From positions 11,102,580 through 11,166,579 of the forward strand of contig NZ_AP025018.1 of NCBI RefSeq assembly GCF_019977735.1: a stretch of 64,000 nt of DNA, in the 5' to 3' direction. The notes beneath the pieces were generated by a model. The model did no database searches. It was not told where the DNA came from and saw nothing but the letters and a program-made list of their open reading frames with translations. This stretch comes from Calothrix sp. PCC 7716 (GTDB lineage: Bacteria > Cyanobacteriota > Cyanobacteriia > Cyanobacteriales > Nostocaceae). The position numbers and the translations under genes were made by a program. Shown here piece after piece: positions 1 to 1,173 of this stretch. Each line of letters begins with the position of its first letter. Position 1 is the first letter of the stretch.

Positions 1-246
1 ATAGAAGAGATATTTAATGTTAAATGGATACTTGATTATTTGAAATATGAATATATATATTGGCTGAATTGGGCGCCTTTGATATTGACGGTTATCTGGA
101 CTACATTCTACCAGTTCAGAAAATTTTTTAAAAACAGTCAAAAAAAATCCGGATTGCACAAGAGGCAGGGTGTAATTGGACTTGATGTATTTAAACTCGA
201 AACTAAATTCAGTTTACATACTCCCTTAATGCCTGTATCTATTTGA
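1..246 (+). CDS. 3' end of an unknown, probably membrane-associated protein (partial)
   Basis: The reading frame is open from the left edge of the window to a stop at 244-246, so this is most likely the C-terminal 81 residues of a gene that starts before the window; a TTG at 40 is the first possible start inside it. One hydrophobic stretch (around WLNWAPLILTVIW, residues 22-34 of the fragment) is followed by a basic segment, suggesting a membrane segment with a cytoplasmic tail. I do not recognise a family. The PatS-like gene follows 57 bases downstream on the same strand. Confidence 0.4.
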   Translation: MEEIFNVKWILDYLKYEYIYWLNWAPLILTVIWTTFYQFRKFFKNSQKKSGLHKRQGVIGLDVFKLETKFSLHTPLMPVSI

Positions 247-303
247 TTCTGGGAAATAAATATTTGCAAAGTAAAACTATTAATTAAAATCGAGGAAAGA
301 AAA

Positions 304-429
304 ATGATGATATTTTTTGACTGCGAAAGAGGTAGCGGTAGAGTTGATGCAGTAATGTTTTTAAGTGATGATAGAGGTAGCGGCAGAATTGACACTATAG
401 TTGATACTATGATGGGCACCAACTCATAA
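304..429 (+). CDS. PatS-like peptide with two RGSGR motifs (41 aa)
   Basis: A 41-codon gene starts ATG-ATG behind a good ribosome site (GAGGA at 292-296, 7 nt spacing). The product carries ERGSGR at residues 8-13 and DRGSGR at 23-28. RGSGR is the HetR-binding pentapeptide of the heterocyst inhibitors PatS and HetN. The first 13 residues (MMIFFDCERGSGR) are collinear with the minimal 13-residue PatS of Anabaena (MLVNFCDERGSGR). The two copies are 45 nt (15 codons) apart and look like an internal duplication: FFDCE-RGSGR-VDAV against FLSDD-RGSGR-IDTI. Unlike classical PatS, the peptide does not end at the pentapeptide but continues for 13 residues, so release of active peptide would need cleavage on both sides. 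The last 6 nt overlap the end of the convergent sigma-like gene. The function is inferred from the motif; no HetR gene lies in the window. Confidence 0.75.
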   Translation: MMIFFDCERGSGRVDAVMFLSDDRGSGRIDTIVDTMMGTNS

Positions 430-1059
430 ATAGCCTTCGCTTTCTGCAAATTGACGTAACCTAGGTATACACTGACGCTGGTAAAAACTGCTCAAAGTCG
501 AAACTGTTAATCCGTATTCGTTCGCTAATTCCTTCCAACTAACTTCTGGTGGTAAACGTTTCAAGATTAATACCTGACAATTTACATCGGGTCGTCCTTG
601 AATATAAGTTTGACGCAAGTCTCCTGATATATCAGCTTCTGCCCACAACTGAACATTTTCTAAAATAGGGGGAGCATCAGGAGGTGCAGCAATATTGTCT
701 ACAGGGTCATATATATCACTTTTATCACCCGAAGCTAACTGCTGTATGCCCAAAGATGCTTTTCTGATATTGTCTTCTTGTGTTTTTAGGTATAAATCTT
801 GTAACCTATGCTTTAAGTACGCATTCAGCCACGTTACAACCGTTCCCCGGTCAGGGTCATAACCCTCGCAAATATTTCGGCAGAAATATAACCAAGTTTG
901 CTGTAAAGCGTCTTGATAATAAGAAGTATTTTCTCTCCACAGTCTGACGGTAACTAAACGAATAATTTGCGTCAAAACTCTAGCTCTTTGTGGACTTCCG
1001 GGTGGATGTCCACAAGCTTCTTCAACTAATCGACGTAATTGTTCCTCCAATCCACTCAT
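424..1059 (-). CDS. sigma-70-like regulatory protein
   Basis: A 211-residue protein from the chosen start (MSGLEEQL...). It resembles the cyanobacterial sigma-70-like/ECF-like family: an N-terminal helical part with a region-2-like segment (RENTSYYQDALQQTWLYF, then YDPDRGTVVTWLNAYLKHRL) and a C-terminal helix-turn-helix (SWKELANEYGLTVSTLSSFY) followed by a basic tail. It probably acts on transcription initiation; the promoter targets are unknown. The frame stays open upstream to 1155, but family members as I know them begin near the chosen Met. It lies 3' of the DUF2330 gene on the same strand and converges on the PatS-like gene with a 6-nt overlap of the stops. Confidence 0.7.
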   Translation of the reverse strand: MSGLEEQLRRLVEEACGHPPGSPQRARVLTQIIRLVTVRLWRENTSYYQDALQQTWLYFCRNICEGYDPDRGTVVTWLNAYLKHRLQDLYLKTQEDNIRKASLGIQQLASGDKSDIYDPVDNIAAPPDAPPILENVQLWAEADISGDLRQTYIQGRPDVNCQVLILKRLPPEVSWKELANEYGLTVSTLSSFYQRQCIPRLRQFAESEGYL

Positions 1060-1173
1060 GCAATAGTTCAAGCCAAACGATGCTAACTGAGTATTGCTTA
1101 TGGTCTGCATAAGTAATATTACCCTTGATGGTGATATTACCTGTTTGATGAGCAAAGGGGAAGGCTTTAGTTC

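Follow-up and report, generated by a model that had tools for sequence, protein, structure and literature searches.

Tandem RGSGR motifs in a positional patS ortholog of Calothrix sp. PCC 7716 and its relatives: a putative multi-peptide precursor

The patS peptide spaces nitrogen-fixing cells in filamentous cyanobacteria, and PatS is a much-studied bacterial morphogen. The window considered here, a stretch of 64,000 nucleotides of the Calothrix sp. PCC 7716 genome, encodes the motif RGSGR twice, and both copies lie within a single short open reading frame (ORF) in which neither is C-terminal (Table 1). Is this ORF a patS gene, and what could be the meaning of its second motif? Overall, it is probably the patS of a Dulcicalothrix/Calothrix clade in which the motif has been multiplied in frame, and its product would be a precursor from which several inhibitory peptides are released.

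Translation of the ORF yields MMIFFDCERGSGRVDAVMFLSDDRGSGRIDTIVDTMMGTNS, a protein of 41 residues with a short leader followed by E/D-RGSGR, as in PatS. This agrees with the initial annotation, which had described two motifs at a distance of 15 codons with a single synonymous base difference between them, a good ribosome site and a gap-free alignment with the minimal PatS; residue 13 is indeed the last of the first RGSGR, which matches the 13-residue PatS, and the ribosome site is unchanged in all seven genus genomes. Simulated windows (first-order Markov, window dinucleotides, n = 200) contained a mean of 0.06 RGSGR sites per 64 kb, and an in-frame pair no more than 40 codons apart occurred in none of these 200 windows. 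The proposal that whole units had been duplicated internally is plausible but finds weak backing within the ORF, where 15 of 30 bases outside the motif match between units (shuffle p 0.017); the corresponding matches in two relatives are 11/30 and 12/30.

Table 1. Features of the tandem patS locus (positions in the 64,000-nucleotide window)
Feature	Position	Strand	Evidence or remarks
Tandem patS coding sequence, 41 codons plus stop	304..429	+	Translation; relatives with 2-4 motifs
RGSGR copy 1, in ERGSGR context, followed by Val	328..342	+	Codons AGA GGT AGC GGT AGA, the same in 7/7 genus genomes
RGSGR copy 2, in DRGSGR context, followed by Ile	373..387	+	Residues the same in 7/7, synonymous changes at 3 codons
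RBS-like GAGGAAAG	292..299	+	Just 5' of the ATG; GAGGAAAGAAAAATG the same in 7/7 genus genomes
Candidate DIF1 promoter motif TCCGGA	148..153	+	Exact in 4/7 genus genomes, TCCGG in 6/7
Candidate -10 element TGTAAT	171..176	+	Kept in 7/7 genus genomes
Small upstream ORF, 3' part (97 codons, starts outside the window)	1..246	+	N-terminal part recurs in both tandem genera
Convergent neighbour, sigma-like by eye, synteny anchor	424..1155	-	No Pfam match at E 0.01

The genomic position of the ORF bears directly on its identity. The tandem gene and pyrC share a strand, and the gene begins 765 bp beyond the point where the pyrC match ends. Six tandem genomes were read gene by gene and share the order lepB (-), pyrC (+), small ORF (+), tandem gene (+) and convergent neighbour (-), with lepB only partial in one and the small ORF broken in another; the other four have pyrC just upstream and the neighbour on the other flank, as judged by coordinates, so that all ten tandem genes follow pyrC. 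The lepB-pyrC pair also lies upstream of patS in 10 of 14 classic-patS regions read. A search of 155 family genomes with the pattern E-RG(S/T)GR-stop, filtered to ERGSGR-stop, retained 86 genomes, of which a few are probably chance matches, and pyrC could be placed in 83 of these (G148 and G130 are without a pyrC match, and the place of pyrC in G108 was not listed). In 56 of the 83 the ERGSGR-stop ORF follows pyrC on its strand at a distance of 226-2629 bp, and it lies away from pyrC in 27, some of which represent other contigs of draft genomes; in G103, G120 and G128, among the 27, pyrC is far from the ORF or on another contig. By this pattern search, which did not cover D-RGSGR-stop in all ten, an ERGSGR-stop ORF is absent from every tandem genome, and the pattern matches in G003, G004, G025 and G097 do not encode RGSGR-stop. 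Against the NCBIfam PatS model (NF047415) the tandem protein scores 24.5 bits (E 1.6e-5), and because the curated cut-off is 30, naming by this model would miss it. The tandem protein has no match in Pfam, and a sub-cut-off HCBP_related match of the C. elsteri PatS was taken as chance.

The place downstream of pyrC also accommodates forms that are neither classic nor tandem. Among 40 further, hand-picked pyrC-downstream stretches, 11 contain a PatS-like ORF with one RGSGR followed by a tail (e.g. MTNFENDCNERGSGRFDQPSI), two a classic PatS and 27 nothing, and G011 supplies a twelfth tailed ORF; Scytonema NIES-4073 and Tolypothrix campylonemoides are examples of the tailed form. The C-terminal position that the initial annotation ascribed to RGSGR in PatS is thus not universal, and since these 12 single-motif, pyrC-linked ORFs lack a C-terminal RGSGR just as the tandem protein does, this trait may perhaps not define PatS. 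As the surveys downstream of pyrC reveal classic, tailed and tandem forms at one place, the tailed form is a plausible intermediate between the other two, which would also set the order of change. Putative PatS proteins of 65-115 aa were known earlier, in a section of the source that is silent on several motifs (PMC5812504).

How widely is the tandem form distributed, and is it maintained? A protein search of 60 relatives (E <= 10) gave matches in 13 genomes, comprising all seven of the genus (Calothrix sp. PCC 7716 included), a clear match in another genus of the same family (G025) and, in five more genomes, weak matches (E 0.4-3.3). A scan by neighbour gene retained 80 of 156 loci with DNA up to 5 kb on each side, less at contig ends; within this DNA, 71 of the 80 carry no tandem ORF, and three of these 71 hold one unrelated-looking RGSGR string each. 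Short frames with several RGSGR motifs, which the initial annotation had proposed to look for in related genomes, are present in all seven genus genomes and in three of the sister genus. Two motifs are found in Dulcicalothrix desertica PCC 7102, Calothrix PCC 7103, FI2-JRJ7, HK-06, NIES-4105, C42_A2020_038 and our own genome; at the same place, the sister genus has three in Calothrix NIES-4101 and CSU_2_0 and four in C. elsteri CCALA 953. A quick tree built from the neighbour protein (82 rows) unites the ten tandem genomes in one group (SH-aLRT 94), which requires one change. Both motifs and the 10-residue gap between them are invariant in the seven genus genomes, and it is in this part of the frame that the conservation looked for over codons 1-41 holds; the codons after 30 vary, the frame being 41 codons long here and 30-37 in the others.

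The pattern of substitution supports purifying selection, as far as sequence comparison can tell. Variable sites in codons 1-30 of the seven genus genomes number 8, 5 and 13 at the first, second and third codon positions. Estimates of dN/dS are imprecise on so short a gene, and close pairs are uninformative (dS 0 in two); the values obtained are 0.135/0.464 (own versus NIES-4105), 0.219/0.385 (own versus C42), 0.196/0.491 (NIES-4105 versus C42) and 0.076/0.392 (C. elsteri versus CSU_2_0). These data also bear on the possibility that a single copy is active and the others are replication-slippage repeats kept by chance, a reading that would suit the variable copy number of the sister genus (3-4) and the almost identical units 2 and 3 of C. 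elsteri. We consider it unlikely, because every copy keeps RGSGR in ten of ten genomes though the residues between copies change, and because copy 2 has gained synonymous changes without a change of amino acid.

The presumed receptor is in place. The HetR of Calothrix sp. PCC 7716 (299 aa) keeps R223, E253, E254, D256, D270 and D278, the residues tied to PatS6 (PMC4649674), and 15 of the 17 genomes examined have a HetR_C match (E 0.001), including all ten with tandem patS and excepting G043 and G349. Taken together, the place downstream of pyrC, the lack of an ERGSGR-stop ORF in tandem genomes, purifying selection and the conserved HetR contact residues support the identification of the gene as a patS ortholog by position with internal multiplication of the motif.

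A multiplied motif raises the question of how HetR would receive it. The HetR dimer is described as binding two PatS6 hexapeptides, with contacts to the N-terminal amino group of the peptide and with Arg223 near the carboxyl group at its C terminus, and longer N-termini are predicted to hinder sterically and to weaken binding (PMC4649674). Because HetR holds the N-terminal amino group and Arg223 lies near the C-terminal carboxyl, an internal motif should need cuts on both sides. The residue following the motif is V or I in 24 of 24 cases in the ten tandem PatS, F or I in 12 of 12 tailed PatS, and I/V/L/F in 85 of 93 in the hetR-linked PatX-like ORFs of the G797 family, where the sequences are interrelated and counts of residues and motifs therefore not independent. 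This shared preference is as expected at a cleavage site, or else may have a structural reason. On the reading that we favour, tandem patS would be expressed in differentiating cells, and a peptidase would cut before X-RGSGR and after the last Arg, that is before I/V/F/L, to yield two or more XRGSGR hexapeptides per molecule (ERGSGR and DRGSGR here). These would reach neighbouring cells and release HetR from DNA, and multiplication of the motif would raise inhibitor output per transcript. PatP is the reported peptidase of PatX (PMC12756182); the present data provide no link of PatP to PatS. The polyprotein-like interpretation put forward by the initial annotation is strengthened by the relatives that carry three and four copies.

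Alternatively, the uncut peptide could serve as a bivalent ligand that fills both clefts of the HetR dimer, the repeats raising affinity rather than the number of peptides; the dimer does take two PatS6 (PMC4649674), and a short linker between motifs could permit such an arrangement. This seems rather improbable given the predicted hindrance by longer N-termini and the proximity of Arg223 to the C-terminal carboxyl. In addition, a signal-less PatX precursor made no contact with HetR in the two-hybrid experiment reported in PMC12756182, copies number up to four in PatS, a PatX-like protein has as many as 17, and the spacing of the motifs is not uniform (14 codons in NIES-4101, 15 codons in the remaining tandem genomes).

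That the ORF encodes a different RGSGR protein, of PatX or HetN type, instead of PatS is very unlikely. Weak scores against the NCBIfam PatX model (NF047413, cut-off 30) speak in its favour, at 12.7 bits for the own protein and 22.4 for C. elsteri, above the PatS score of the latter (19.2). Nevertheless, a hydrophobic leader is absent by eye, the genome has a separate PatX elsewhere that reaches 52.7 bits, and the gene occupies the patS position.

The multi-motif design recurs among PatX-like proteins. The initial annotation had listed PatX-type proteins as carriers of RGSGR; to this must be added that other families and orders of the class have PatX-like ORFs, many of them adjoining hetR, with 2 to 17 RG(S/T)GR motifs. 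The ORFs beside hetR in the G797 family were sampled on the basis of HetR_C, irrespective of motif (57 genomes, of which 53 have HetR_C; the best 30 loci were read). Two to four motifs are present at 28 of the 30 loci, namely three motifs at 17, four at 10 and two at one; these counts are lower bounds where a locus stops within the ORF, and the two exceptions are truncated at contig ends. In the G271 family a multi-motif ORF is within reach at 2 of 12 hetR loci. Proteins with nine motifs are encoded roughly 1 kb ahead of the HetR_C match in G783 and G629, an 11-motif array is found in G043 and a 17-motif protein in G246; for a nine-copy protein NCBIfam gives no match at E 1. It is important to point out that the G043 array sits in a genome without a HetR_C match (E 0.001), which may reflect a missing contig, a divergent HetR or another receptor. 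A search of 388 genomes of the order gave matches in 36 at E <= 0.1, many weak or single-motif, and a second search gave 51 matching genomes among 388 of the class at E <= 0.01, with 2-9 motifs at all 29 loci read; its count of I/V/L after the motif (146/160) was set aside, since its model favours multi-motif sequences and I/V/L. Elsewhere, two RGSGR-bearing repeats lie in a 1221-residue open frame that resembles pyruvate:ferredoxin oxidoreductase by eye (G032:C1:4156238-4156315). Three more short ORFs of our own genome (C1 8796865, 9613129 and 9644228) end in or near ERGSGR or HRGSGR, one of them with a hydrophobic segment, and may be further inhibitor genes.

The region upstream of the tandem gene offers a hint of regulation. 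TGTAAT lies 17 bases beyond TCCGGA, an arrangement that resembles the DIF1 promoters of patS (PMC7377430) and is weak evidence for DIF1-type regulation. As proof it was rejected, the motif being exact in only four of seven genus genomes; TCCGGA is absent within 420 bases upstream of the tandem gene in the three sister-genus genomes, where the DIF1 and NtcA patterns were both sought and not found, and the window holds five copies against 5.8 expected by chance, which is no enrichment. The generic promoter scan did not report the TGTAAT. A search for NtcA (GTA-N8-TAC) and HetR (GGG-N5-CCC) sites over 1.5 kb upstream in the seven genus genomes found a sole NtcA-like match, 756 bases upstream in NIES-4105. 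A spurious ORF, suggested by its shortness, the variable codons after 30 and the unremarkable promoter scan, is scarcely credible when frame, ribosome site, motif pair and place are all conserved and no such pair arose in simulation.

The flanks of the gene hold several further features. The small ORF between pyrC and tandem patS spans 64-97 codons, of which the first 45 or so are conserved in both tandem genera (copies in the window, G000:C1, L084 8533-8826; in L085, 2777-2986; and in L086, L087, L088 and L089), and is broken by a stop in one genome, down to 36 codons. The own copy has no NCBIfam or Pfam match, and the other pyrC/patS stretches searched returned only stray weak matches (E about 0.25). 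Between C. elsteri and CSU_2_0 its dN is 0.157 and its dS 0.383, with variable sites spread evenly over codon positions (10, 11, 12). The 3' end of the convergent neighbour, which is present in 114 of 155 family genomes, overlaps the last six bases of the tandem ORF. Farther on, a run of seven-base repeats (GTGCTGA) lies between two genes at 2461-2500 of the window.

Counting against a patS with a multiplied motif are the sub-cut-off PatS score, a motif that is not C-terminal, the 27 of 83 ERGSGR-stop ORFs off pyrC, the patchy DIF1 and the G043 array without HetR_C. If several signals are freed, one precursor molecule could yield two to four five-residue messages. A PatS ortholog with tails on all its motifs makes C-terminal cleavage testable, and the natural series of copy numbers at one place (1, 1 with tail, 2, 3, 4) amounts to a dose test of the activator-inhibitor model. 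Reliance on a C-terminal motif or on the NCBI model could wrongly class genomes as PatS-less.

In the literature searched, which did not extend to Elhai and Khudyakov 2018, a precursor with several RGSGR copies is not described, and absence from print is not claimed. With PatS (NF047415; 17 residues in Anabaena PCC 7120) the tandem protein shares the place downstream of pyrC, the ERGSGR hexapeptide, a conserved HetR and an eight-residue stretch before the first RGSGR; unlike PatS, it has two motifs (three to four in the sisters), none of them C-terminal, and scores under the family cut-off. The tailed PatS-like ORFs are likewise found downstream of pyrC, with RGSGR followed by F/I and a tail, but have one motif only. 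HetN also contains an internal RGSGR (PMC7761841) but is set apart, by description only, as a large protein resembling short-chain dehydrogenases (PMC4133259). PatX (NF047413) and the multi-motif PatX-like ORFs are alike in being a source of RG(S/T)GR, and those in other families of the class repeat the motif, mostly followed by I/V/L, as tandem PatS does. In contrast with tandem PatS, PatX has a hydrophobic leader and often adjoins hetR, with no link to pyrC seen; export has been demonstrated for the Anabaena protein (PMC12756182). It is conceivable, though we put it forward tentatively, that HetR-bearing cyanobacteria have repeatedly made their inhibitor precursors, PatS as well as PatX-like proteins with 2-17 motifs, into polyproteins akin to multi-copy pheromone precursors; the shared XRGSGR followed by I/V/L/F would then point to an Arg-directed endopeptidase, and copy number would tune the gain of the inhibitor that forms the pattern.
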